From Arthrobacter sp. H35-D1 (GTDB taxonomy: Bacteria; Actinomycetota; Actinomycetes; Actinomycetales; Micrococcaceae), in the NCBI RefSeq assembly GCF_030063185.1, contig NZ_JASISP010000001.1:1-64000 (forward strand): a stretch of DNA of 64,000 nt, given 5' to 3'. The notes beneath the pieces were generated by a model that worked only from the letters and a program-made list of their open reading frames with translations, was not told the origin of the DNA and searched no databases. Within the stretch, counting starts at the first letter, position 1. Every line of letters begins with the position of its first letter. The position numbers and the translations under genes were made by a program. Shown piece after piece: positions 7,913 through 55,655 of the stretch.

Positions 7913-8736
7913 TGGACACCATTGATCCGCTCGTGTGGTTTGCCATCGGCTACGGACTTGTCCTGCTGGCCGTTGCCCACTTCCTTGACATCCTTGCGCG
8001 GCGCACGGCACAGCGCACAGTGGAGTGGCGCTCCGGCGGGTTCCACTATCATGGTGACCACGACGCCTGGCTGTGTCCCCAGGACCAGTGGTTGTGGCCG
8101 GAATCCTTTGACCCGGACAATCGCGTCATGCGGTACCGGGCCAATCCGGCCGTGTGCAACGCCTGCCCCGTCAAGGACTCCTGCACCACGTCAAGCAGCG
8201 GCCGGGCAATGAGCCGCAACGTTGATCCGTGGCCCAGCTCCGAAGCTGAACGCTTCCACCGTGGCATTGCCTGCGCGGTCGTCGTGCTGGCTTTGGCGTG
8301 GCCCCTGGCCACCATGATCGGGGCCAGGAACGGAGCCGAGCTGCTGGTCCTGGCGGTGACGGTCCTGGCCATCGCCGCCGCAAGCTGGCCGCTGTGGTCC
8401 CACCTGCACCGGTCACCGGCGAGGTTCCCTGACCACGTCAAGGTGGAGGTGCTCGATGACACGGTGGCCCGCCATGCTTCAGGATCCGAACGCGAAGCCC
8501 GCAGGCACACCAGCTACGGAAGCGACCACCGGCCCGGCCCGGTTCCGGTCCAGCTCACACCGCCACCGCACCACGCAGGCACAGCAGTGAACGCCGGCGA
8601 GACGGTGAAAGCTGACACGGCCGGGGAACACGACAAGTTTGCGACCCGCTGGGGGTCGTTCGGGGAACCCGGCGGCGAGGCAACCGCACCGGGACGGAGC
8701 AGGAGGAAGAACACATGGCCTGGATCCAGATCCTGA
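7912..8736 (+). CDS. Cys-rich membrane protein of the qNOR operon
   Basis: A 274-residue protein not assigned to a named family. One N-terminal helix (VWFAIGYGLVLLAVAHFL) is followed by a soluble domain with HYHGDHDAWLCPQDQWLWPE and NPAVCNACPVKDSCTT, a C-x2-C-x5-C set that could bind zinc or an Fe-S cluster. Two adjacent helices follow (IACAVVVLALAWPLATM and LLVLAVTVLAIAAASWPLW), then a low-complexity His/Pro/Gly tail. The start ATG overlaps the qNOR stop (TGATG), and the end overlaps the slipin start, so the three are one operon. An accessory or electron-transfer role in NO reduction is an inference from position only. Confidence 0.75.
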   Translation: MDTIDPLVWFAIGYGLVLLAVAHFLDILARRTAQRTVEWRSGGFHYHGDHDAWLCPQDQWLWPESFDPDNRVMRYRANPAVCNACPVKDSCTTSSSGRAMSRNVDPWPSSEAERFHRGIACAVVVLALAWPLATMIGARNGAELLVLAVTVLAIAAASWPLWSHLHRSPARFPDHVKVEVLDDTVARHASGSEREARRHTSYGSDHRPGPVPVQLTPPPHHAGTAVNAGETVKADTAGEHDKFATRWGSFGEPGGEATAPGRSRRKNTWPGSRS

Positions 8737-9635
8737 TTGTTGTTGTGGTGGCGGTTGCACTGCTGTTCCTGCTTGCCTCGGTGAAGATTATCCGGGAATA
8801 CGAACGCGGCGTTGCGTTCCGGCTGGGGCGTCTCCGTCCCGTGCTCGATCCTGGCGTGCGCCTCATCCTGCCGGGGCTGGAGAAGATGGTGCGCGTGGAC
8901 CTGCGCATAGTCACGCTGACCATCCCCCCTCAGGAGGTCATCACCAAGGACAATGTGCCCGCTCGTGTCAACGCGGTCGTGCTCTTCAAGGTCGTGGACC
9001 CGACGCGGTCGGTCATGGCAGTGGAGAACCACGCGGTGGCCACCTCGCAGATGGCCCAAACCACACTGCGCTCAGTGGTGGGCCGGGCCGACCTCGATAC
9101 CCTGCTGGCACACCGGGCCGACCTCAACGAAGACCTTGCCCGCACCATCGATGCACAGACCGAACCCTGGGGCGTGCACGTGAAGGTGGTTGAGATCAAG
9201 GACGTGGAGATCCCCGAGGCCATGCAACGGGCCATGGCGAGGGAAGCCGAAGCCGAGAGGGAGCGGCGCGCCAAAATCATCAACGCCCGGGGGGAACTTC
9301 AGGCCTCGAAGGAGCTGCGCCAGGCTGCCGACGTCCTCAGCGGCAACCCCGCGTCGCTCCAGTTGCGCTATCTGCAGACGCTACTGGAACTGGGAGCAGA
9401 CCAGAACTCGACAGTCGTCTTCCCGCTGCCCATGGACATCATTGGACCGTTCCTTGACAGGATGCCGCGACGGGACGAAAAGGCTGCCGACACGGTGCCG
9501 ACGGGGACCAACCACAACGGCCCAAAAAAGCCGTCAACGCAGCAGGAGTCGGAGCAGCACGAAGCCGGGGCCGGCCCGGAACATGACCTGACTCCGTTCC
9601 CCGAAATCCAGCTGGAAAGGCCTGACAATGTCTGA
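8715..9635 (+). CDS. Slipin / SPFH (band 7) membrane protein
   Basis: A 306-residue stomatin-like protein. One N-terminal helix (IQILIVVVVAVALLFLLA) is followed by the SPFH domain with IIREYERGVAFRLGRL, LPGLEKMVRVDLR, PPQEVITKDNVPARV and TTLRSVVGRADLDTLL, then a coiled-coil region rich in EAEAERERRAKI. The C-terminal 60 residues are hydrophilic and probably disordered. The start has a strong AGGAGGAAG ribosome binding site inside the end of the upstream gene. SPFH proteins organise membrane protein assemblies; here it could scaffold the NO reductase, but that is inferred from the operon. Confidence 0.9.
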   Translation: MAWIQILIVVVVAVALLFLLASVKIIREYERGVAFRLGRLRPVLDPGVRLILPGLEKMVRVDLRIVTLTIPPQEVITKDNVPARVNAVVLFKVVDPTRSVMAVENHAVATSQMAQTTLRSVVGRADLDTLLAHRADLNEDLARTIDAQTEPWGVHVKVVEIKDVEIPEAMQRAMAREAEAERERRAKIINARGELQASKELRQAADVLSGNPASLQLRYLQTLLELGADQNSTVVFPLPMDIIGPFLDRMPRRDEKAADTVPTGTNHNGPKKPSTQQESEQHEAGAGPEHDLTPFPEIQLERPDNV

Positions 9636-46967: not shown

Positions 46968-47057
46968 GGTGACGTGTCCGAGCGGCCGAAGGTGCAACAC
47001 TCGAAATGTTGTTTAGGTGAGAGCCTAACGTGGGTTCAAATCCCACCGTCACCGCCA
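46968..47057 (+). tRNA. tRNA-Ser (CGA), integration target
   Basis: A 90-base class II tRNA: acceptor GGTGACG/CGTCACC, anticodon stem CAACA/TGTTG with loop CTCGAAA (anticodon CGA), long variable arm TAGGTGAGAGCCTA, T-arm GGGTTCAAATCCC, discriminator G, encoded CCA. The last 23 bases (47035-47057) are repeated at 55633, so the 3' end of the tRNA is now provided by the integrated element. Confidence 0.95.
47035..47057 (+). other. attL core (23 bp)
   Basis: The core runs from the T-loop TTCAAATCCC to the CCA end of the tRNA. It is identical to 55633-55655; the flanks differ on both sides. Confidence 0.92.
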
Positions 47058-47066
47058 GTTTACAAG

Positions 47067-47110
47067 ACCCCTGCTTCCCTTTGTTTACAAGGGAAGCAGG
47101 GGTTTTGTTT
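47067..47110 (+). terminator. Terminator after tRNA-Ser
   Basis: ACCCCTGCTTCCCTT pairs with AAGGGAAGCAGGGGT and is followed by TTTGTTTTG. It lies inside the element, whose own DNA thus ends the tRNA transcript and may also stop integrase mRNA. Confidence 0.88.
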
Positions 47111-47119
47111 TGTCATGAA

Positions 47120-48253
47120 TTAGACGTTTGGGCACCGTTTGGGCACATCTGATTGTGAGACTGCCTTATCCAGAGCTACCGCCACGGCGTCCAGGTCCCC
47201 GTCAAACAGGTCTGCATAGATGTCCAGAGTCATGGCCGCGCTGCTGTGCCCAAGCATTCTCTGCACGGCCTTGACGTTGGCCCCGGCACTGACAGCTAGG
47301 CTTGCCGCCGTGTGGCGGAGATCGTGAGGTGTGATCCTTGGGATACCTGAACGCTTCACCGCACCAGCGAACCAACTCTGATTGTCTTCATGGATTCTGG
47401 CACTGCGGAGGTATTGCCCATCCACGCCGGGGAACACAATATCGTCCCGGTGCTTACCCTCGCACGCCGCCGCCAGTGGCTCTGTCAGGAACGCAGGGAA
47501 CGGAACAGATCGCTTCTTGTGGCTCTTGGGAGTGCCCACCTCAATTTTGCTGCCGACCTCAACAGCGTTTACCTCAACATTGATCCGTCGTTTGAGCATG
47601 TTCAGGTGCTTCACCTGGAGGGCGACGGCTTCACCCCAGCGCAGACCGCAGTAGGCCAGTACCAAGATAAGCGTCTCGTATTTCGATTCTGCCGCGAGCA
47701 AATGCACCTGCTCGTGTGAGAGGTACACGTGAGGCTTCTTGACCTTTCTAGGCAGGTTCACGCCCCTCGCAGGGTTGATTAAGACACGCCTGTCATCCAC
47801 GGCACCGTCAAGGATGGACGCCAGCACCCCATAGGCCCGGACAACCGTTGTTGCACCCTTGGGCGGGCGCACTGGCTTCGCTTCAGCGTCCCCCACTGTC
47901 AGGCCTGAAACCCATTCTTGGATCTCAGTTTTCCGCACTTCAGACACAGCCGTGGAACCCCAAGCAGGCGCAACATGTACGCGCCAGGCAATCTCAAGGG
48001 GCCGATAAGACGACGGTTTCAAATGGGTCTGCCGTTTCAGCCAGGCAGGTCCCAATGATCCGATAGTGACCCTCGCCGCGCCGGGGTCAATGTATTCACC
48101 TTTAGCCTTGGATACCTCAACAGAAGCCAGGAACAGTTCAGCGTCCCGCTTTGTCCTGAACCCGCGCTTCTTGGTCTGCTTCCTGTCCGGCTTCCGATAG
48201 CGGACCTGATACCGCTTACCACCGGCAGTTTCGTAGGCTTCAACTGTCGCCAT
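47120..48253 (-). CDS. int: Tyrosine site-specific integrase
   Basis: A 377-residue tyrosine recombinase. The N-terminal arm-binding domain contains YQVRYRKPDRKQTKKRGFRT; the core-binding SAM-like domain follows; the catalytic Arg lies in YCGLRWGEAVAL, HxxR in ITPHDLRHTAASLAV, and the nucleophile Tyr in LGHSSAAMTLDIYADLFDGD. ATG 48253 is chosen; it overlaps the repressor stop by 14 bases. It integrates the element at tRNA-Ser, whose 3' end lies 60 bp from the gene end. The two TGGGCAC motifs in its last codons are likely its own arm sites. Confidence 0.95.
   Translation of the reverse strand: MATVEAYETAGGKRYQVRYRKPDRKQTKKRGFRTKRDAELFLASVEVSKAKGEYIDPGAARVTIGSLGPAWLKRQTHLKPSSYRPLEIAWRVHVAPAWGSTAVSEVRKTEIQEWVSGLTVGDAEAKPVRPPKGATTVVRAYGVLASILDGAVDDRRVLINPARGVNLPRKVKKPHVYLSHEQVHLLAAESKYETLILVLAYCGLRWGEAVALQVKHLNMLKRRINVEVNAVEVGSKIEVGTPKSHKKRSVPFPAFLTEPLAAACEGKHRDDIVFPGVDGQYLRSARIHEDNQSWFAGAVKRSGIPRITPHDLRHTAASLAVSAGANVKAVQRMLGHSSAAMTLDIYADLFDGDLDAVAVALDKAVSQSDVPKRCPNV
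47129..47146. promoter_or_regulatory. Left integrase arm-type sites
   Basis: Two copies of TGGGCAC at 47129 and 47140 are 11 bp apart, one helical turn. A pair with exactly the same 11-bp spacing lies near attR (55519, 55530), plus a single copy at 55617. They are within the last codons of int, 72-89 bp from the attL core. Confidence 0.55.
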
Positions 48254-48983
48254 TGCTCTTTCGCTTCGCCAGAACTTCCTTGATAAATGGTGCCGCAAGT
48301 CCAGAGTCGACAATCCCGGCCAGTTCAGTTTTTATTCGGTCATAGAACTTTGCCATGTCGCTCCACCCGCCCTCTGGATATGCGCGAACGCGAAAACTGC
48401 CCACGTCGGCCTTGCCTGTATGAACCCACAGCGAAACCCACTCCCCCGGGTCAAGGTCCGATACGGTTTTGCTTACACCGGCAATGAATTCTCTTGTTGT
48501 GTACACCTCCCCGCTAGGGCGTATGCGATCCAAGAATCCTTGCCCCTGCTCAGCTGCATACTTACGATACGCCTGCCGTCCGCGCTCCATGTCGGTGGCA
48601 TCCTCGTCAATTACCAAAGCATTAGACCGCTCATGGGGCAGCGCTTGCCACCCGTCGCCCCACGCCCATATATCTGCCGCCGTGGTCCCTTCCGGCATGG
48701 CCGTGACCTCATCGCTATAGTCTTCGTCGCCGATGTAGTGCGGCAGGAGCAGGGCGCTTGGGTTTACGCCCAAGGCAATAGCCAAAGCCATCAGGTCATC
48801 AACATCAATGCGCCGCCCCCCCTCTTCCATGCGCCGGATTGCTAAGGGTGAGATAGTCCTGCCGCGCTCAGTCACGCTGCGCGAGAGATCTGCATAGTTC
48901 AGCCCACGGTCAACTCTCACCCGTTTCATGTTCTCGGCGACGGTGCGCCCAGTCGGTCCTAGTTCCATCTTCTGTCCAGCCAT
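48240..48983 (-). CDS. XRE-family repressor
   Basis: A 247-residue protein. The N-terminal HTH_XRE domain is VAENMKRVRVDRGLNYADLS, ISPLAIRRMEEGGRRIDVDD and LMALAIALGVNPSALLLP. The C-terminal 150 residues (including VYTTREFIAGVSKTVSDLDP and WVSLWVHTGKADVGSFRVRA) are not recognised. It is the expected repressor of the element's early genes and is divergent from the excisionase-like gene. The start may be ATG 48983 or 48968. Its stop overlaps int, so repressor and integrase are co-expressed in the integrated state. Confidence 0.85.
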   Translation of the reverse strand: MAGQKMELGPTGRTVAENMKRVRVDRGLNYADLSRSVTERGRTISPLAIRRMEEGGRRIDVDDLMALAIALGVNPSALLLPHYIGDEDYSDEVTAMPEGTTAADIWAWGDGWQALPHERSNALVIDEDATDMERGRQAYRKYAAEQGQGFLDRIRPSGEVYTTREFIAGVSKTVSDLDPGEWVSLWVHTGKADVGSFRVRAYPEGGWSDMAKFYDRIKTELAGIVDSGLAAPFIKEVLAKRKSNGDS

Positions 48984-49109
48984 TGCACCAGTCTGACATA
49001 CAAAGGATGAAGGTGCACCTGCCATTGTTGACTACGACCCATTCATGTGATTATTATGAACCTAGACATTCAAAAGATGAAGGTCAAGTTACTAAAGATG
49101 GAGATCATG
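48984..49109. promoter_or_regulatory. Divergent control region with two 21-bp direct repeats
   Basis: GACATACAAAGGATGAAGGTG (48995-49015) recurs with 18 of 21 bases as 49065-49085. The copies are 70 bp apart and lie between the divergent repressor and excisionase-like genes. They are the best candidates for repressor operators. The region is AT-richer than the rest. Confidence 0.5.
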
Positions 49110-49316
49110 ATGGACGCGAACAAGGCTTTGAAGCCAGCAACAGTGGCGGAGTGGCTCGACACCACTGTTGGCGCATTAGCACAGATGCGATACATGGGGC
49201 AGGGTCCCAAGTTCGTCAAGATTGGCGGGCGCTCGGTCCGCTACATGGAGGCCGACGTGCTGTCGTGGATCGAAGCACAGACCCGTCAGCAGACCGGCGA
49301 ACAGGTGACCGCATGA
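49110..49316 (+). CDS. xis: Excisionase-like helix-turn-helix protein
   Basis: A 68-residue MerR-like winged helix: LKPATVAEWLDTTVGALAQM for the helix-turn-helix, then GPKFVKIGGRSVRYMEADVL for the wing and final helix. This is the usual form of AlpA/Xis proteins of phages and satellites. AGATGGAG precedes ATG 49110 (ATG 49107 is also possible). First gene of the rightward operon; its stop overlaps the next ATG by ATGA. Confidence 0.82.
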   Translation: MDANKALKPATVAEWLDTTVGALAQMRYMGQGPKFVKIGGRSVRYMEADVLSWIEAQTRQQTGEQVTA

Positions 49317-49699
49317 GCTTCAGACCCGCCACCAAAGAAAAAGGCCGTGACGCCTCGCCAAAGTCCGTCACGACCGAAGAAACAAACACCTACCAAGGAG
49401 TAGTTCCTATGCAACACCCTACCAAGCCCAGCGAGATCCTGCCCGGTAGCATCCCTCCCGGATTCGTGCCGTCAGACCAAGTGTGTGATCTCTACACGGG
49501 CAAGGGCATGAAAGGTGATAGGTGGATCATCGCGGCTGAATGGGTCCGCACCACCAACGAGTTCACTCTCACCTTCTGGACCACTGACGATGACCCCATG
49601 ACAGCCTCCGAGACTCGCAAGTACTCACACGCGCTGCTGGAAATGTCCTCCTACATCACCACCATGGAGAACGTCATGGCTAAGCGGACGGTGGTCTAA
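49313..49699 (+). CDS. Hypothetical element protein
   Basis: A 128-residue protein if it starts at ATG 49313 (ATGA overlap with xis), or 96 residues from ATG 49409, which has AAGGAG eight bases upstream. The part common to both has LPGSIPPGFVPSDQVCDLYT, GDRWIIAAEWVRTTNEFTLT and ALLEMSSYITTMENVMAKRT. Soluble, no motif recognised. It may be a small replication or regulatory accessory protein. Confidence 0.65.
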   Translation: MSFRPATKEKGRDASPKSVTTEETNTYQGVVPMQHPTKPSEILPGSIPPGFVPSDQVCDLYTGKGMKGDRWIIAAEWVRTTNEFTLTFWTTDDDPMTASETRKYSHALLEMSSYITTMENVMAKRTVV

Positions 49700-49702
49700 A
49701 CA

Positions 49703-49876
49703 GTGACTGCCGGCTGCATTGCGACTACCTGCGACTGCCACAACTCCACCGACTGGCTGTGCACCACGTGCCGCGCCGCCGCACGTCCTGCTCTGTGGGA
49801 AGAAATCCGAAAAGAACTAGTGACCACAATCAGTTTCCTCGACGTAATCAAGGCCAGAGAAAGGAGCGCACTATGA
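49703..49876 (+). CDS. Small Cys-rich protein (57 aa)
   Basis: A GTG-started frame four bases after the preceding stop encodes GCIATTCDCHNSTDWLCTTC and ends in VIKARERSAL. The Cys pairs (C-x4-C-x-C and C-x2-C) suggest a zinc ribbon. The stop overlaps the next ATG (CTATGA), a tight coupling that supports a real gene. Confidence 0.6.
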   Translation: MTAGCIATTCDCHNSTDWLCTTCRAAARPALWEEIRKELVTTISFLDVIKARERSAL

Positions 49877-51237
49877 CGGACGACTACGCCCAGCCACCAG
49901 AAGAGCACTGGAAAGCAAAGGAAGCAGAAGACGACAAGCACGGCAGAGCGATCCTCAAGCCGCGCAAGCTTTCCGACATCAAGGCACCGCCCCCCACTCA
50001 GTGGCTCGCCAAGGGCTGGATACCCTATTCGGAGATTACGGTGTTGGTTGGTGAGGAAGGTCTTGGAAAATCCCTTGCTTGGGTCCGGTGGGCTGCTGCG
50101 ATCACGTCAGGCCGTGCAGATGCTTCTGTAAGTCTGCCAGCCCGTAAGCCCCGCGATGTTGTTGTTATCGTCACGGAGGACAACCCCGGCGAAGTCAAGG
50201 CGCGGCTTACGCTGGCCGGTGCCGACCTGAACCATATCTACTTGTTTTCAAGCGAAGCTGACGGCACAGGAAACCCGGTGTTCGGTAACGCGATGAACGG
50301 CGATATGGCCACGCTGGACGCCTACCTTGAGGAAGGGGCCATAGACGCGGCACTGGTTGTTGTGGATGCCTGGGTAGACACCGTAGCGGGCTCCCTGACG
50401 CTCAAGGACTCCCAGCAGGCCCGCCAAGCCATGCACCCGTGGAAGATGTTGGCACAGCGCCACAGGCTCGCCGTCATCCTCATGACCCACACCAACAGAA
50501 TGTCCACGGCCAGCACGCGTGACCTTATGGGCTCAACAGCGGTCCTCAGGCAGAAGGCCCGCATGGTGTTGTTCGCTGCACGGTCACCTGACGATAAGGA
50601 ATCAGGAGGTGAGTTCGTATGGATCGGCCCGGACAAGTCCAACGTGACAGGCAAGGCCAATGCTGTGAAGTACCGACTCAAGATTGAGAATGTCCGCGAA
50701 GCCTCAGACGACGACCCGGGGACAACTGCCTGCCTTGCCAACTACACCAGGGCGCACACCAACATAAGCAACCTGATTGCCGAATGGAAAGAGCAGCAAG
50801 ACCAAGCCTTGCGGCCCAAGTCGAAGCAGGAGCAGGCACAAGAAGCCGTCACCGCCTACATGGAAGACCATCCAGACGGTTGTTCTGTGGACGATCTCAA
50901 GGATCATCTAGAGGCTGAGGGCTTCGGAAAGACAGCATCCGAGAAAGCCCGAAGCGCGCTCGGCACTTCAATCCGTGACGGCTTCGGCGGCGGCTTCACC
51001 TTCCGGCTCAACAACGGCTCCAACCTCCCTAGTCAAGATCCCATATATCAGGAGGTTAGGGACATTAGGACGGTTAGGGAGATTGAGCCTGAATGTGCCG
51101 TCAATGTTCCTAATCTCCCTAATCCTCCTACCTCCCTAACTAATGGAGACCCCTTAGGAACATTGGAGCTCTGCATCGCCTGCGGCGATCCCCTGCATGA
51201 GCATGAACACGATCGCCACCAGGGATGTGCAGCATGA
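49873..51237 (+). CDS. RepA-like AAA ATPase, probable replicative helicase/initiator
   Basis: A 454-residue RecA-fold protein of the RepA/helicase group. Walker A is VLVGEEGLGKSLAW near residue 55, Walker B ALVVVDAWVDT near 155, and a later motif AVILMTHTNRMSTASTRDLM. The C-terminal part contains a winged-helix-like stretch (DHPDGCSVDDLKDHLEAEGF) and a Cys/His tail (CIACGDPLHEHEHDRHQGC). AAGGAG lies six bases before the ATG. The 3' end of the gene carries the TTAGGGA-type repeats, so the protein may bind its own gene as origin, as in satellite and plasmid replicons. Confidence 0.85.
   Translation: MTDDYAQPPEEHWKAKEAEDDKHGRAILKPRKLSDIKAPPPTQWLAKGWIPYSEITVLVGEEGLGKSLAWVRWAAAITSGRADASVSLPARKPRDVVVIVTEDNPGEVKARLTLAGADLNHIYLFSSEADGTGNPVFGNAMNGDMATLDAYLEEGAIDAALVVVDAWVDTVAGSLTLKDSQQARQAMHPWKMLAQRHRLAVILMTHTNRMSTASTRDLMGSTAVLRQKARMVLFAARSPDDKESGGEFVWIGPDKSNVTGKANAVKYRLKIENVREASDDDPGTTACLANYTRAHTNISNLIAEWKEQQDQALRPKSKQEQAQEAVTAYMEDHPDGCSVDDLKDHLEAEGFGKTASEKARSALGTSIRDGFGGGFTFRLNNGSNLPSQDPIYQEVRDIRTVREIEPECAVNVPNLPNPPTSLTNGDPLGTLELCIACGDPLHEHEHDRHQGCAA
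51056..51160. repeat. Iteron-like TTAGG(G)A motifs, possible origin
   Basis: TTAGGGA/TTAGGA occurs directly at 51056, 51065 and 51074, inverted as TCCTAA/TCCCTAA at 51108, 51116 and 51133, and directly again at 51154. Spacing is 8-17 bp in each block, and the two blocks can pair with each other. They lie in the 3' end of the RepA-like gene. The coding meaning there is low-complexity (VPNLPNPPTSLTN). Confidence 0.55.
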
Positions 51238-51255
51238 AAGCCGCCCGAAATTATC

Positions 51256-51280
51256 ACCGCCCCCCAATGGCGGTTTTTTT
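51256..51280 (+). terminator. Terminator after the RepA-like gene
   Basis: ACCGCC pairs with GGCGGT around a six-base loop and is followed by seven Ts. It separates the replication part from the small-ORF/capsid part of the operon. Confidence 0.8.
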
Positions 51281-51307
51281 ATCCCCGAAAACAGAAGGAG
51301 CCTAACA

Positions 51308-51541
51308 ATGCGCCACCAAATGACCAACACAGCACCGGACGCCGTAGCCGTCAGAGCTTGGCCCAACCGGACCTATCCCGGCTTTTACGTAATCGAAGTC
51401 AAATGTCCACACTGCCCCAAGAACCACACCCACGGATGGGAAGGGCCAGGAGATCCCGGCGGGCACCGAGCATCACACTGTGACGCGATAGGCGGTTACA
51501 ACATCACCATTCCCGACGGATTCAAGGCGGACGCACCATGA
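51308..51541 (+). CDS. Small zinc-ribbon-like protein
   Basis: A 77-residue protein with CPHCPKNHTHGWEG and HRASHCDAIGG, likely a zinc site. AGAAGGAG lies seven bases before ATG 51308. Its stop overlaps the next start (CCATGACG). No family recognised; similar tiny zinc proteins are common in actinophage genomes. Confidence 0.7.
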   Translation: MRHQMTNTAPDAVAVRAWPNRTYPGFYVIEVKCPHCPKNHTHGWEGPGDPGGHRASHCDAIGGYNITIPDGFKADAP

Positions 51542-51768
51542 CGACCGAAGCACCGCGAACGTTCACAGCAGCCCCCGGACACTGGCACCACAACAAGCGC
51601 ACCGCCAAAGTCATCCCCGCTATCCTCAATACCCCTGACGGCGACCAAATCCCCGGCGTGCACATCTTCCATGCGGGTGCGTGGATCGTCACCACCGAAG
51701 CGAACGCCGTTCAAATAGCCGATGACATCTTGAATGTCATTGAATCAAGAGACAGGAATGCAGCATGA
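51538..51768 (+). CDS. Small hypothetical element protein
   Basis: A 76-residue soluble protein (TFTAAPGHWHHNKRTAKVIP, HIFHAGAWIVTTEANAVQIA). Overlaps both neighbours by four bases (ATGA), so it is part of the operon. No motif recognised. Confidence 0.65.
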   Translation: MTTEAPRTFTAAPGHWHHNKRTAKVIPAILNTPDGDQIPGVHIFHAGAWIVTTEANAVQIADDILNVIESRDRNAA

Positions 51769-52013
51769 GTAACACACCACTTGCAGCCGCCGGCATGGAC
51801 GCCCTGGTTATGGAGCGTGCCGCACGCAAGGCAGCCGAGCGGGCACGAGTGAAAGCACAGGCCGAAGCGAAGGCAGCCAACGAGCTGGCCGAGCTGTGGG
51901 AACTGCGCTGCAAAGACACCGGGCGTTCCCTGAAATGGTTCAAAGCCGAGTGGAAGCGGTACAAGGAAATTCACGAGCAAGCCCAGATCAACAACAACAT
52001 CTACGCAGACTAG
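51765..52013 (+). CDS. Small coiled-coil element protein
   Basis: An 82-residue, strongly helical, charged protein (ERAARKAAERARVKAQAEAK, then LKWFKAEWKRYKEIHEQAQI). ATGA overlap with the preceding gene. It lies directly before the scaffold-like gene and might be a structural helper, but nothing proves it. Confidence 0.65.
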   Translation: MSNTPLAAAGMDALVMERAARKAAERARVKAQAEAKAANELAELWELRCKDTGRSLKWFKAEWKRYKEIHEQAQINNNIYAD

Positions 52014-52017
52014 GAAA

Positions 52018-52524
52018 ATGAAAATGAACACCAAAGCCAATACCAGCACCGAGACCACCACCACCGCCCCCGAGGCACCCGATACGACCGTGACGCCGCC
52101 CGTGCCGACCCCGCCAGCCCCTGCCGAGGTAGTAGAGCCCGCAGAGGCTCCCGAGGCCCCAGAAGGCAAGGCAGGCAAGACAGCCAACGAAGCAGCCAGG
52201 TACCGCCGCCAGCTCCGCGACACCGAAGCCGAACGCGACACCCTCACCAGTTCCGTGGACACCCTGCGTAAGCAGATCGTCGCCGGGAACATGCCACCGG
52301 GCAGCAGCGCCGGGGCAGAGCTTCTATGGACTTCAGGGGCCAACCCCGCTGACTTCTTTGACGAAGCCGGTGCACTGGACCCTGACAAGCTCACCGTGGC
52401 AGTCAAGGAAGCACACCAGCGCCTCGGGCTGCACTTCGGACTTTCCCCGGTCCACGGCTCCGGCACAGGCCACTATGCGGGCACTGACGGCCCCACATGG
52501 AGTGACGCACTGAAACGCAAATAG
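52018..52524 (+). CDS. Phage scaffold-like protein
   Basis: A 168-residue protein with the layout of actinophage proteins encoded just before the major capsid gene: a Thr/Pro/Glu-rich disordered N-terminus (about 1-60), a coiled coil (ANEAARYRRQLRDTEAERDT), and a C-terminal part with GAELLWTSGANPADFFDEAG and DPDKLTVAVKEAHQRLGL. Such proteins act as internal scaffolds for procapsid assembly. AGGAAA precedes the start. It supports the view that the capsid gene downstream is functional. Confidence 0.7.
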   Translation: MKMNTKANTSTETTTTAPEAPDTTVTPPVPTPPAPAEVVEPAEAPEAPEGKAGKTANEAARYRRQLRDTEAERDTLTSSVDTLRKQIVAGNMPPGSSAGAELLWTSGANPADFFDEAGALDPDKLTVAVKEAHQRLGLHFGLSPVHGSGTGHYAGTDGPTWSDALKRK

Positions 52525-52702
52525 CGCACCAACTGGGCAGAATGCTCAACAAACGGCCCCTGGACTGGTAGAATTGCCCTAGTGGTAAGACTGCCGGCCA
52601 GGGGCCGCACTTATGACTAGACGCCCCAGGACGGGCACCCGGTAGAGGCTGGACCTCCCGAAAAAGCACACTCGCACTAAATACCCGTCCTTGGAGGACA
52701 CA
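52525..52702 (+). promoter_or_regulatory. Structured leader of the capsid gene
   Basis: The 178-bp gap before the capsid start holds CGGCCCCTGG (52554) and CCAGGGGCCG (52598), a perfect 10-bp stem around 34 bases. Further short GC stems follow (GACGGGCACCCGG). GGAGG at its end is the capsid ribosome binding site. It could be a regulatory RNA leader or mRNA-stability element. No known class recognised. Confidence 0.4.
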
Positions 52703-53521
52703 ATGACCTTTCTTGAAGCTGCCGCAACCGGCATCCTGCCCCCCGAATACTCCACCCTCATTACCGGCCCCGTCGCCGCCCTTGCACTCCCGTTTGATCC
52801 CTCCCTCGCTACCGTCGTCACGACCGGCAGCGCATCATTCAGCGTCCCCGTCCTCAAGAAGGACGCCGGTGCCGCTTGGGTCGCAGAAGGTGGAGAGATC
52901 ACCCCGGATGACCCGACGCTGGACGAGCTGACCATCACCCCGTCAAAGGTTGCAGGCCTGACCATCGTCTCCCGCGAACTCGCCGACGATTCCAGCCCCG
53001 ACGCACAGAAAATGGTTGGTGACGGCCTCGCCCGCTCCATCATTACCCAGATCAACACCGCATGGTTGGGTAACGCCGCCGCCCCGGCACAGAAGGGCCT
53101 CGGCTCCCTCGCTGCCACCACCACCGCCGTCACGGGAACACTCACCAACCTGGACGTGTTCGCAGAAGCAATCTCAGCAGCAGAAGTGGCCGGGTTCAAC
53201 CTCACCGGGTTTGTAGTCCACCCCTCCGACGCCCTGGCCATTGCCAAACTCAAGGACACCGGCACCTCAAACAAGGCCCTGCTGGACAACCCCCGCGAGA
53301 TCCTCGGACGCCCCGTGTTCGTCAGTGACAAGGCCACCGCCAAGACCATCTGGGGACTCGACGCAGTGCAGACCCTTACCATCCTGCGGGAAGACGTGCA
53401 GCTCGCCGTCAGTAACCAGAGCCACTTCACTTCTGACAGAATCGCCATTAGAGCATCCATGCGTGTTGGGTTCGGCTTCCCTCAGCCCAAGTCAACCGTC
53501 AAGATCACCATCACGGCATAG
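52703..53521 (+). CDS. HK97-family phage major capsid protein
   Basis: A 272-residue HK97-fold capsid protein. It starts MTFLEAAATGILPPEYSTLI after GGAGG. Typical segments are SASFSVPVLKKDAGAAWVAE and GGEITPDDPTLDELTITPSK (N-arm and E-loop), LTIVSRELADDSSPDAQKMV (spine helix), GFVVHPSDALAIAKLKDTGT (P-domain) and EDVQLAVSNQSHFTSDRIAI with FRVGF-like end MRVGFGFPQPKSTVKITI. There is no protease or delta-domain, in line with a separate scaffold protein. It is the only visible particle gene besides the scaffold. Confidence 0.9.
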   Translation: MTFLEAAATGILPPEYSTLITGPVAALALPFDPSLATVVTTGSASFSVPVLKKDAGAAWVAEGGEITPDDPTLDELTITPSKVAGLTIVSRELADDSSPDAQKMVGDGLARSIITQINTAWLGNAAAPAQKGLGSLAATTTAVTGTLTNLDVFAEAISAAEVAGFNLTGFVVHPSDALAIAKLKDTGTSNKALLDNPREILGRPVFVSDKATAKTIWGLDAVQTLTILREDVQLAVSNQSHFTSDRIAIRASMRVGFGFPQPKSTVKITITA

Positions 53522-53537
53522 CCAAGCAGCACACCAC

Positions 53538-53569
53538 AAGGCCCCGCATCTTCCAAGGTGCGGGGCCTT
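53538..53569 (+). terminator. Hairpin after the capsid gene
   Basis: AAGGCCCCGCA pairs with TGCGGGGCCTT around ten bases, 17 bp after the stop. A T-run is lacking; it may still end or stabilise the capsid mRNA. Confidence 0.65.
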
Positions 53570-53594
53570 ACCCATTACCAACGACAGGACAGCA

Positions 53595-53873
53595 GTGCCA
53601 CGCAAGCCAGACAGCCCATGGAACCGCGACAGAATCAAAGCAATCAGAGCAGCACAACAACATCAAACACACTGCAAAGACTGTTCAGTGCCGCTCAACT
53701 TCGACCGTGGAACGCTCCCCAACACAGCCACCACACGGCGCGACGGCGAACACTACACAGTGATCTGTCAACGCTGCCACGACAAGCAACCAACACAAGG
53801 CAACGCACCAACGACAGCAACGACAGCAACGACAGCAACGAGGCACGAAGCACCAACCAAGTTCACCGGATAA
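53595..53873 (+). CDS. Small HNH-like/zinc protein
   Basis: A 92-residue protein from GTG 53595 (AGGA upstream). It has CKDCSVPLNFDRG and ICQRCHDKQPT, the two Cys pairs of an HNH endonuclease, but the central His-Asn residues are not clear (TRRDGEHYTVI). The end is a Thr/Ala repeat encoded by ACGACAGCA units. HNH nucleases next to capsid genes assist packaging in many phages. Here it could also be degenerate. Confidence 0.55.
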   Translation: MPRKPDSPWNRDRIKAIRAAQQHQTHCKDCSVPLNFDRGTLPNTATTRRDGEHYTVICQRCHDKQPTQGNAPTTATTATTATRHEAPTKFTG

Positions 53874-54313
53874 CATCCAGGGGCCTTAACCCTTCCCCTC
53901 CCCGCTGCCCCGTACCCCATGCATAGCGAGGGTTTTCACTCTCGGGGCTCAAATTCCACAGGCTGCGGTTTTTTCCACACGTCCGCAATGGTTGGTGGCC
54001 CGTTCTAAGGGCTCGCAAGGGCTGTAAGTTCATAGATGACACCCAGGGGAGCAGCCCCCTCCCTGCGCCTACGTCAGGCACTCCACTAGCGACAGGGCTT
54101 GTCCCCCCCCGAGGTGCGGCAGTATTGGGCTTGGGGCTGTTTCAGGCGGCGTTAGGGGCCTGTTTGGCGCTGTTTGGGTGTTTCATGGAGCATATTTGAC
54201 CCCGGAAATGGTGGAGGGCAGCCTCAGTTTTGCCCTTGCCATGCATCCGTAAAGCGCGGTCAAGTTCCTTGTATTCATTGGTTTTATCGCGTACAAAACG
54301 GTAGAATGGGAGC
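53874..54313. other. Non-coding 440-bp region of the element
   Basis: No supported ORF. The stretch 54100-54185 has repeated CTGTTT motifs (GGGGCTGTTTCAGG, GGGGCCTGTTTGG, GGCGCTGTTTGGG) and a C8 run at 54104-54111. GGCTGTTTCAGG recurs inverted near attR (CCTGAAACAGCC). This is the largest gap in the element and a candidate for a packaging (cos/pac) site or promoter region. Confidence 0.4.
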
Positions 54314-54886
54314 ATGGAAACAAGGGCTTGCGGGTACTGCGGAGGGGCTATGAACCTGCCGCGACGTGGTGCAAAGTTCTGCACACCCAAATGTGGGACG
54401 TATTTCCGCCGCCAAGCGAACAAGCCGCCAGCACTTCCCGCCGCGATGATGGAGCTTAGGCGATGGGTTCGACGGGCACCGGACAAGCGGCCCCTGACTG
54501 TTACCGGGCGTGCTGCCAGCTCTACCAATCCGCGCACATGGTCAAGCTTCGATGAAGCCCAGGCATCCACCGCAGGGGCAGGGCTCGGCTTTGTTCTCCG
54601 TGGTGACGGCATAGGCGTCATTGATCTTGACCATGCGATTGTTGACGGAGTGATTCTGCCGTGGGCTGCCGAGGTTCTGGCCGCTAATCCTGGGACGTTC
54701 ACGGAGGTTTCACAGTCCGGTGAAGGGCTCCACGTCTGGGGCTTGCTGGCACCAACGAAGGGCCGAGTTATCCGCGACGGCCGGAACATTGAAATCTATT
54801 CAACAGGCCGGTACGTGGCGCTTGGAACAGCGCTGCCGGGGACGAGCATGGAACTGTTGCCGCTGAACATCGCCCAGTTGACATAA
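54314..54886 (+). CDS. Prim-pol-like protein with N-terminal zinc ribbon
   Basis: A 190-residue protein. An N-terminal zinc ribbon (CGYCGGAMNLPRRGAKFCTP with CGTY) is followed by a short primase-polymerase-type domain: AGLGFVLRGDGIGVIDLDHA (metal Asp residues), EVSQSGEGLHVWGLL and NIEIYSTGRYVALGTALPG. These are the motifs of bifunctional DNA primase/polymerase N-terminal domains in phages and satellites. It is shorter than usual, with no helicase part; the RepA-like ATPase could supply that. A palindrome separates it from the next gene. Confidence 0.78.
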   Translation: METRACGYCGGAMNLPRRGAKFCTPKCGTYFRRQANKPPALPAAMMELRRWVRRAPDKRPLTVTGRAASSTNPRTWSSFDEAQASTAGAGLGFVLRGDGIGVIDLDHAIVDGVILPWAAEVLAANPGTFTEVSQSGEGLHVWGLLAPTKGRVIRDGRNIEIYSTGRYVALGTALPGTSMELLPLNIAQLT

Positions 54887-54896
54887 ACGTACATCT

Positions 54897-54914
54897 AACC
54901 GTAACGTTACGGTT
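54897..54914. promoter_or_regulatory. 18-bp perfect palindrome at the zinc-protein start
   Basis: AACCGTAACGTTACGGTT ends directly before ATG 54915, leaving no room for a normal ribosome binding site. It is probably an operator for a dimeric regulator, and the gene would be expressed leaderless or by coupling. Confidence 0.55.
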
Positions 54915-55529
54915 ATGAGTACAGATGCTAAGTGTCCAATCTGCTTGGGGCCGATCACTGCCGAGAATCCCGGCGTCAAAATGCGCTTTGCCGAAAAGCG
55001 GACTACACCGAAGCATAAATTCAAGCACTATCGGGGCGAAGTACTTGCATGCAATGACTGCGCCACGACTGGCCGCGCCGGAATGGGCGGCAAAGACAAC
55101 TTGTTCATGGTCTCATCGCCAGAGTTCACAGAGGGCTGGGAGCCGCACGAGTGTGCACATTGTGGTGTTCCTCTGCTTGTGGCCGCAGATAAGCGGCGTA
55201 AGGCCCCTTACTGCTCGACCCGGTGTCGGGTTGCCGCCCTCCGCAAAGCGCAGAAAGCCGTACATGTAGCCGTAACGCATGAGTGCATGGGTTGCGGGTC
55301 CGCCATGGAAGGCAGGGCTGACCGCAAATTCTGTAGCCCAGCATGTAAACAGAAAGCGTACAGGAGCCGTAACGCTGCTATCCGTAGCTACTTCAGTTCA
55401 GATCAGGAGATGCACGACTCAATGGCCATGGCATTAGCCAGTGATAAAGAATTTGAAGCGGCGATCGACGCCGCCAAACTTGACGGGGATGTTTCGCGGG
55501 GGAATATCCTCCGCCATCTGGGCACATAA
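54915..55529 (+). CDS. Multi-zinc-ribbon protein
   Basis: A 204-residue protein with four Cys sets: CPICLGPITAENPG, CNDC, CAHCGVPLLVAADKRR with YCSTRC, and CMGCGSAMEGRADRKFCSPA with C. The middle resembles HNH/recombination-type proteins (TTPKHKFKHYRGEVLACNDC). A helical C-terminus follows. The last gene before attR, in the place of accessory or cargo genes in satellites. Function unknown. Confidence 0.7.
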   Translation: MSTDAKCPICLGPITAENPGVKMRFAEKRTTPKHKFKHYRGEVLACNDCATTGRAGMGGKDNLFMVSSPEFTEGWEPHECAHCGVPLLVAADKRRKAPYCSTRCRVAALRKAQKAVHVAVTHECMGCGSAMEGRADRKFCSPACKQKAYRSRNAAIRSYFSSDQEMHDSMAMALASDKEFEAAIDAAKLDGDVSRGNILRHLGT

Positions 55530-55623
55530 TGGGCACATTTGATCCTGAAACAGCCTGTTTTCAATGACTGTCAGTGATGAATATTTGCCTAGAATCCGGT
55601 AAATTGCCGCCACTGCTGGGCAC
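55519..55623. promoter_or_regulatory. Right integrase arm-type sites
   Basis: TGGGCAC occurs at 55519, 55530 and 55617. The first two are 11 bp apart, just like the pair at the left end. The third lies nine bases before the attR core. The same orientation at both ends fits arm sites of a lambda-type integrase. Confidence 0.55.
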
Positions 55624-55632
55624 ATAAAAGGC

Positions 55633-55655
55633 TTCAAATCCCACCGTCACCGCCA
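55633..55655 (+). other. attR core (23 bp)
   Basis: Exact copy of 47035-47057, the 3' end of tRNA-Ser with CCA, without the rest of the tRNA. Confidence 0.92.

Follow-up and report, generated by a model that had tools for sequence, protein, structure and literature searches.

How does a mobile element become packaged if it codes for its own capsid and scaffold, and neither a portal nor a terminase gene is found in it? This question is raised by an 8.6-kb element in Arthrobacter sp. H35-D1 (assembly GCF_030063185.1). It is located in the first 64,000 nt of contig NZ_JASISP010000001.1; this whole stretch is referred to as the window. The element is a real and conserved satellite, very probably mobile, and brings along capsid and scaffold genes of its own. 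More specifically, we consider it probable that it is an integrative cos-type phage satellite which makes its own shell and borrows the terminase, portal and tail of a helper phage. A preceding analysis of the letters alone (the sequence-only reading) had described a repeat-bounded element with genes for an integrase, an XRE repressor and Xis-like, RepA-like, prim-pol-like and capsid proteins. The repeat and the domain matches bear this out, and every gene named there is present and open. The capsid leader, two cos candidates, an HNH-like open reading frame (ORF) and a zinc-ribbon ORF are added here.

The element is enclosed by a 23-bp direct repeat, TTCAAATCCCACCGTCACCGCCA, which results in a unit of 8,598 bp. 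The repeat match extends to 39 bp at 85% identity. The direct repeat is the 3' end of a tRNA-Ser(CGA) gene. In window coordinates, and with E-values in brackets where domain or family matches are listed, the features are as follows (a slash marks the position of a cut-like site).

46968-47057, plus strand: tRNA-Ser(CGA) (ARAGORN; Rfam tRNA 5.5e-9), its 3' end being attL
47035-47057, plus strand: attL core, 23 bp, direct repeat
47120-48313, minus strand: tyrosine integrase (PF00589 1.1e-23; Arm-DNA-bind_4 1.8e-7), start possibly internal, at 48253
48240-48983, minus strand: XRE-family repressor (HTH_3, PF01381, 7.5e-5; phrog_11503 9.5e-20), scanned as the longer ORF 48240-49025
49047-49316, plus strand: Xis/AlpA-like excisionase (phrog_66 1.9e-7)
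49873-51237, plus strand: RepA-like AAA_25 helicase, replication (AAA_25 1.9e-22), scanned as ORF 49759-51237
51308-52013, plus strand: three small ORFs with ATGA-type overlaps (51308-51541, 51538-51768, 51765-52013), no significant family
52018-52524, plus strand: capsid scaffolding protein, assigned from an alignment with 11 relatives
52525-52702, plus strand: noncoding leader of the capsid gene, with a -10-like box, hairpins and a possible long-range pairing
52703-53521, plus strand: major capsid protein, HK97 fold, 272 aa (Phage_capsid, phrog_10, AlphaFold model)
53595-53873, plus strand: weak HNH-like zinc ORF, 92 aa (single comparison with the right-end HNH gene of Propionibacterium phage G4)
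53880-53925, plus strand: cos candidate 1, GGGG-N6-CCC at 53880, then the cut-like site CAT/AGCGAG between 53924 and 53925
54046-54091, plus strand: cos candidate 2, GGGGAGCAGCCCCC at 54046 and AGCGA at 54088
54314-54886, plus strand: stand-alone prim-pol, gene-1 type of actinophages (Prim-Pol 3.4e-5; phrog_8643 6e-52)
54915-55529, plus strand: zinc-ribbon/HNH-like protein, 204 aa (phrog_1271 2.9e-11; relative in locus L052, 5e-22)
55633-55655, plus strand: attR core, 23 bp, direct repeat

The make-up is that of an integrative phage satellite: att bounds, integrase, regulator, excisionase and replication gene, with no full set of virion genes. An Rfam scan of the window returned the tRNA alone above threshold and two sub-threshold matches. 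A nucleotide search of the whole element against phages gave no match.

The capsid protein matches Phage_capsid (8.6e-31) and phrog_10 (9e-37), and a profile of 12 capsid relatives matches solved HK97-type capsids. An AlphaFold model based on 15 aligned sequences (predicted local distance difference test 81, predicted template modeling score 0.79) has the capsids of phiXacJX1, HK97 and D3 as its best PDB matches; the PDB matches listed are capsids of the tailed-phage type (HK97 fold). The protein encoded directly upstream had been called scaffold-like. It has no convincing family match of its own and is called a scaffold because it is homologous to a family in which 3 of 12 aligned members, the window protein not among them, match phrog_4708 ("head scaffolding protein", best 1.5e-7). 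The family, aligned as the window protein and 11 relatives, has a coiled-coil-like core around EAAKYRxxLRExExERD and a C-terminal Trp motif, with Trp161 invariant in 12 of 12.

Searches with Pfam and/or PHROGs, which covered all ORFs of the element except a 57-aa ORF at 49703, found no gene for a large terminase (TerL), a portal, a protease or a tail protein. When all called products were compared with local profiles, neither a terminase nor a portal was found among them. The absence of portal, terminase, protease and tail genes, as stated in the sequence-only reading, agrees with these searches. Several small ORFs have no family, which leaves room for a complete tiny phage with an unrecognised portal and terminase. 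The window ORFs without a convincing function comprise only 57-128 aa, plus the 204-aa zinc ORF, whereas TerL and portal proteins of reference phages have 420-569 aa (the 420 being a cut product). The chance that the element is such a phage is close to negligible.

A sample of 395 genomes from the family to which the window belongs contained 24 with a capsid match, its own genome included. With a five-sequence alignment as query, 21 capsid loci were found in a collection of genome contigs, from Actinokineospora, Pseudonocardia, Mycobacterium, Actinomyces, Scrofimicrobium, Nesterenkonia, Arthrobacter, Nocardia, Brevibacterium, Streptomyces, Ruicaihuangia, Microbacterium and a metagenome-assembled genome (MAG) of Acidimicrobiia; a Paceibacterota MAG has a weak match. 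With the window capsid alone as query, no match was obtained in the genome-contig or viral-contig collections, nor did a viral-contig search with the capsids of L064 and L078 return any. Not every capsid match is a satellite, as L051, L053, L055 and L057 carry TerL and portal genes beside the capsid gene. Several other loci, among them L041, L048-L050, L056, L060, L061 and L072, were not bounded.

At an E-value of 1e-10, the window capsid has no relative in any of the 22 remaining genus genomes (1 of 23, the match being its own). This bears on a reading in which capsid and scaffold are interference tools that co-assemble with, or poison, helper capsids, the satellite being packaged in hybrid or helper-made shells. 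Staphylococcus aureus pathogenicity islands (SaPIs) and P4 do remodel helper shells according to the available text of PMC10690885, and a capsid protein without a portal could seed mixed shells. A full-length HK97 capsid protein together with a co-conserved scaffold, however, exceeds what a size-redirecting factor needs, and the lack of a close capsid in the genus also speaks against this reading, which we judge unlikely.

In total, 23 elements were mapped, including that of the window. Those which could be named belong to nine genera (Nesterenkonia, Arthrobacter, Actinomyces, Scrofimicrobium, Nocardia, Brevibacterium, Ruicaihuangia, Mycobacterium and Microbacterium) and to the Acidimicrobiia MAG. 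Their common plan consists of integrase, replication gene, scaffold and capsid. An integrase is present in 23 of 23 (in L076 by Pfam) and a replication-type product was recognised in 17, or 18 when a DUF3631 protein is counted. A scaffold-like ORF was detected by phmmer in 20 (not in L045, L047 and L054; in L044, the ORF so labelled is not directly next to the capsid gene). Large unassigned products turned out, by Pfam or PHROGs, to be replication proteins and one tape measure; products of 571 aa (L062) and 277 aa (L043) have no family, and a 459-aa product of L047 was examined with local profiles only. The sequence-only reading had considered a distinct design. A singular design is not supported, as the plan recurs in Actinomycetota and is at least partly described in mycobacteria, and as 11-kb "phages" of Mycolicibacterium aichiense have similar gene contents (see below).

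The elements are also uniform in size, with lengths of 7,828-9,587 bp (mean 8,815, standard deviation 505, n=20). This set consists of 19 elements measured by the spacing of bounding repeats of at least 18 bp and of the tandem period of L052. Excluded were L042 (where the repeat was interpreted as arm-type repeats of the integrase), L047 and L065 (15-bp repeats), L066-L068 (duplicates of L038-L040) and loci with no convincing bounding repeat. Integrase, att site and downstream cargo vary among the elements of the set, and in L040, L070, L071 and L076 only about 300-340 nt separate the capsid gene from attR. A narrow length range despite such differences fits a packaging limit and would not be expected from independent decay.

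A portal was found in 0 of the 23 mapped elements with a local profile built from 7 phage or prophage portals. TerL is present in two, L040 and L070, and is split in both (terminase profiles; PHROG 6e-55 and 2e-55). The split TerL of Arthrobacter castelli (L068:7867-8601 and 8703-9278) and of Brevibacterium antiquum (L070:7804-8550 and 8575-9237) apparently consists of an ATPase gene (phrog_7579) and a second product which is weakly terminase-like, in satellites without a portal match. The belief that no relative carries TerL was therefore rejected; phmmer with phage references had missed the split genes of L040/L068 and L070, and the small portal and terminase profiles can likewise miss divergent proteins. 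A small terminase (TerS) is encoded in L081 (4.8e-16) and also in L061, which is outside the 23. The satellite of Ruicaihuangia caeni codes for a 729-aa tape measure after the capsid gene (L075:11538-13724, PF20155 6e-19).

The small size of the element, the portal and TerL genes that were not found, and the resident helper that was not found would also be consistent with a prophage remnant which has lost its other head and tail genes. According to the sequence-only reading, simple decay was unlikely, and it named two findings that would change this: a full prophage parent at this site in related strains, and a capsid gene under no purifying selection. The tRNA locus was found in all 22 other genus genomes examined. 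In five of these, a short stretch resembling the right flank of the window's attR directly follows the tRNA, which is the pattern expected of an unoccupied site; this stretch was not found in the remaining 17, where occupancy is not assessable in this way. In two sister species the same tRNA-Ser is occupied, by a prophage of about 40 kb (L110-L112, G001:C1:2891000-2934000) and by a 12.4-kb island with a restriction-modification-like protein (L113, G003:C1:132200-146500). The integrase of the prophage is only 25% identical to that of the window, and the window capsid has no match in the prophage or in the island. Neither of the two resembles a parental form of the element in the window. In another genome, G002, a third att-like copy is located 73 kb away.

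Concerning the second finding, the closest capsid pair (L044/L045, 91% identical) has a ratio of nonsynonymous to synonymous substitution rates (dN/dS) of 0.071 at a dS of 1.1. Among the ten closest pairs, the remaining nine have dN/dS values of 0.14-0.52. For pairs with the window capsid, whose nearest mapped relatives are at most 48% identical, values are 0.31-0.94 where defined, with synonymous sites at or near saturation. The capsid family is under purifying selection; the window copy itself is too diverged from its relatives for dN/dS to resolve this. In L052 (G241:C5:1-20000), two exact 8,057-bp copies are arranged head to tail, with no mismatch in the first 8,068 positions compared, although this tandem pair may be an assembly artefact. 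Taken together, the exact tandem pair and the dN/dS of 0.071 make decay unlikely. Gene disruption and a larger parental element at this site, which characterize a decayed prophage, were not found. The 23 mapped elements have plan and size in common although their integrases and att sites differ, and this, as well as the cognate leader pairing described below, argues in the same direction. That the element is a prophage remnant is thus very improbable, and the earlier judgement stands with open ORFs, shared plan and size, the exact tandem pair and selection on the capsid family as its basis.

The tandem pair has a second implication. Concatemers, and not monomers in small shells, might be packaged in large capsids for which the satellite capsid protein supplies all or part of the shell. 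The available text of PMC10803314 describes phage-inducible chromosomal minimalist islands (PICMIs) as packaged in the form of a concatemer with no capsid remodelling. Narrow sizes in spite of different integrases and att sites suggest, however, a length limit of one genome, and the M. aichiense records were deposited as 11-kb units. We consider packaging of concatemers improbable.

The region between the scaffold and capsid genes is unusually long. In the window, this leader has a -10-like TAGAAT at 52569-52574, hairpins, and a possible long-range pairing of 52626-52635 with 52684-52694, beside the Shine-Dalgarno sequence at 52693-52697; it has no Rfam match. The gap has 127-243 nt in 22 of 23 mapped elements (unsure for L040 and L054; 503 nt in L047, where the capsid start is mis-called). 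For comparison, 212 other same-strand gaps have a median of 16 nt, with 24% being at least 120 nt long. Many of the leaders have a -10-like box and hairpins. Among 32 leaders, the upstream part pairs better with the ribosome-binding region of the same leader than with one swapped in from another (mean -26.8 versus -22.3 kcal/mol), and 0 of 20,000 permutations reach the observed sum, in a test that corrects neither for relatedness nor, fully, for composition. Four swapped partners pair better than the own one in the window; the number is 31 in WillG, 22 in L055 and 20 in L047 and L052. The cognate pairing suggests translational control of the capsid gene. The idea that the leader is specific to satellites was considered and dropped, as the layout is similar before the capsid genes of the prophages with TerL and portal (L051, L053, L055, L057). 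Among these, only L057 does well in the pairing test (5 swapped partners better), while L051 and L053, with 13 and 12, do not, nor does L055.

In the proposed reading, a helper terminase would recognise a helper-type cos site in the element, and relatives provide candidates. Profiles built only from phage cos ends match L076 at 87 nt after the capsid gene (4.5e-4), L075 at 93 nt after it (2e-4) and L072 (5.5e-3). Weaker matches were obtained for L065 (0.11), L041 (0.18), L071 (2.3) and L078 (2.2), and implausible places are matched in L069 (0.24) and L052 (1.7). In reversed-sequence controls, one profile had no match, while the best values for the others were 1.5 and 1.4. The putative end of L076, GTCAT/AGCGAAAT..CTCCCCG, resembles that of phage E6 (GTCAT/AGCGAAATATCTCCCCG in L076 versus GTCAT/AGCGAAATCTCCCCG in E6), and L078 has TTTGTACGGGTCTGGG where Samy has TCTGTACGGGTCTGGGG. 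In L039, L041 and L062, CAT/AGCG is followed by CTCCCC. With an iterated profile, L038 is matched at 102 nt after the capsid gene (0.3), and also at an implausible place (0.054). A distant DNA search with the mycobacterial relatives L078 and L077 returned only a shared tRNA-Tyr attachment region and weak matches. Judged from these similarities, predicted cos ends are well supported for L075 and L076 and likely for some other relatives.

The prim-pol of the window belongs to the family of gene 1 of many actinophages, which is usually located beside the cos end. In 32 of 39 phage records with full coverage (at least 80%), the match starts 189-231 nt from the left end (19 distinct names, counted by eye). 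These phages include Bauer, Samy, Juicebox, Propionibacterium phages G4, E6, B22 and Doucette, Corynebacterium phage Poushou and Mycobacterium phage Krakatau. Seven records do not follow this pattern, namely those of SF3 and VWB (two each), xhp1, Bbif-1 and BigBern1. Close to the right end, Bauer, Juicebox, Samy, G4, E6 and Poushou carry an HNH gene and Krakatau a gene for a small terminase. In 6 of 7 phages compared, GGGG-N2-7-CCCC precedes the physical right end by 43-47 nt and prim-pol by 239-262 nt (the prim-pol start of Samy was set manually for this distance); Krakatau lacks the motif.

In the window, the motif of candidate 2 precedes prim-pol by 268 nt and is followed by AGCGA after 42 nt. 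The probability of finding the motif by chance is 0.019 at -200 to -300 and 0.16 anywhere in 792 nt. Candidate 1 has CAT/AGCGAG 45 nt after GGGG-N6-CCC and 51 nt after the HNH-like ORF, with a joint chance of 0.0007 for a pattern that was defined after the site had been seen. An iterated profile that includes five elements matches the window at candidate 1 only weakly (0.42; a control reaches 0.89). The HNH-like ORF is 28% identical over 74 aa to the HNH protein of G4 (5e-6, a single comparison) and has no match to that of Poushou and no convincing Pfam or PHROG family. In the same genus, the motif is found at -267 in G001, where prim-pol is upstream of a portal gene in a prophage, and at -249 in G013 under a looser pattern (CCC). 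Among the other mapped elements, L065 alone has this prim-pol, and its motif is at -241. When phage ends were aligned directly to the window, 7 of 8 comparisons stayed below their shuffle maxima. The Bauer forward alignment (score 31 versus a shuffle maximum of 30) was discarded as cos evidence because it covers the letters just before the prim-pol start. A distant DNA search with the putative cos region gave one match, with an E-value of 2. The evidence for a cos site in the window is thus only suggestive.

For the satellite proposed here, the following course can be envisaged. Integrase and Xis would move the element into and out of the tRNA-Ser gene, with the XRE protein as its repressor. 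The AAA helicase would replicate it once a helper siphophage is active. Scaffold and capsid protein would then build a procapsid on the helper portal, probably smaller than that of the helper. The helper terminase would recognise a helper-type cos signal between capsid and prim-pol genes and fill the shell, and the neck, tail and lysis proteins of the helper would complete the particle.

Several points weigh against this proposal. Two cos candidates are present in the window, and no more than one of them needs to be genuine. Candidate 1 is 389 nt from prim-pol, not about 200, and candidate 2 lacks CAT before AGCGA. The phage-only cos profiles do not match the window. One of three same-genus prim-pol neighborhoods (L182, G016; its frame holds a stop) lacks the motif, and none of the three has noncoding DNA alignable with the window. 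The HNH-like ORF is weak, its usual D-H motif not being apparent. Packaging genes differ among relatives (TerS, split TerL, HNH, tape measure), so that one mechanism may not fit all. The genome that contains the window has no match to Phage_portal, SPP1_portal, TerL_ATPase or TerL_nuclease (four Pfam models), and no resident helper was identified; a helper would be an external or a lost one, or one whose type is missed by these models.

Several known systems share features with the element. The available text of PMC10654092 defines candidate phage-inducible chromosomal islands (PICIs) in Mycobacterium genomes by integrase and major capsid genes in a phage-like region, and includes phiRv1 and phiRv2; some are at tRNA genes, and some have helicase, scaffold and terminase genes. 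The window element has both defining genes, although the definition was made for Mycobacterium, and one mapped relative is mycobacterial (L078, M. aurum). A conserved length of 7.8-9.6 kb, a portal-free minimal set, phage-type cos ends and a spread beyond Mycobacterium are not stated in the available description. No description of portal-free capsid satellites outside Mycobacterium was found in the open-licence PMC literature, as judged from search listings.

Twelve phage records from M. aichiense (OR387110-OR387121, 10.87-11.08 kb) match the capsid. The three of them whose genes were examined resemble the window element in a capsid with 31% identity, an ORF at the scaffold position and a small genome, and have no portal or large terminase annotated. 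These three differ by a serine integrase, a "terminase" of 96-134 aa (small), adaptor, stopper and a tape measure, which, as in L075, is encoded after the capsid gene. No publication on these 11-kb records was found in the open-licence PMC literature.

Capsid-forming PICIs (cf-PICIs), as described in the available text of PMC10690885, have their own capsid and use helper tails, as is proposed for the window satellite. They carry protease, portal, connectors, TerS, TerL and HNH genes. The window element shares the major capsid protein with them, while no portal, large terminase, head maturation protease or connector was found in it. The same text describes MulchRoom and MiniFlayer, Streptomyces phage satellites with own capsid and scaffold and capsids of about 43 nm. 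They code for TerS, TerL, portal and adapter and have no primase, whereas the window element has a replication module and those packaging genes were not found. Classical PICIs, SaPIs and P4 are similar in integrase, repressor, excisionase, replication module and packaging by cos or TerS; they are not known to encode a major capsid protein of their own. They resize that of the helper (PMC10690885 in its available part). According to the available text of PMC10023795, many actinobacterial prophage-like elements under 15 kb are supposed to be satellites.

The most interesting point is whether a shell with a triangulation number (T) below 4 forms. The available text of PMC7762592 states that tailed phages with T=1 and T=3 are missing and predicts genome lengths for small HK97-fold shells: about 11.8 kb for T=3 (95% range 8.1-17.1), and about 8.1 and 8.9 kb for T~2.33 and T~2.49. 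It also reports gut metagenome contigs of 7.3-8.5 kb with a major capsid gene and predicted shells below T=3. By this description they resemble the window element in tiny genome and capsid gene; they are contigs only. It is tempting, if tentative, to speculate that minimal satellites with integrase, replication, scaffold, capsid and cos occur throughout the phylum, that they assemble the smallest HK97-fold tailed-phage shells (T=3 or less), for which portal and motor are borrowed, and that these are the "missing" small tailed-phage capsids of PMC7762592. The group is spread over several actinobacterial genera, and its length of 7.8-9.6 kb offers a concrete and culturable test for tailed HK97-fold particles below T=4, a question raised in that text. 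If the proposal is correct, such a satellite swaps only the container and keeps the engine and delivery of the helper, and capsid plus scaffold would be exchangeable onto a foreign portal and terminase.

Three observations from contig collections are added. One IMG/VR contig (L125) has two related elements side by side, which are 78% identical over 2.4 kb and have capsid genes 9.1 kb apart. Another (L128:7712-16448) has repeated HNH/small-terminase segments downstream of the capsid gene, which may be an assembly artefact. Three contigs of about 9-10 kb (L138, L143, L148) have terminal repeats of 123-127 nt and a capsid match, with L138 also having a terminase-like gene; these are possibly circular small capsid elements of another kind.

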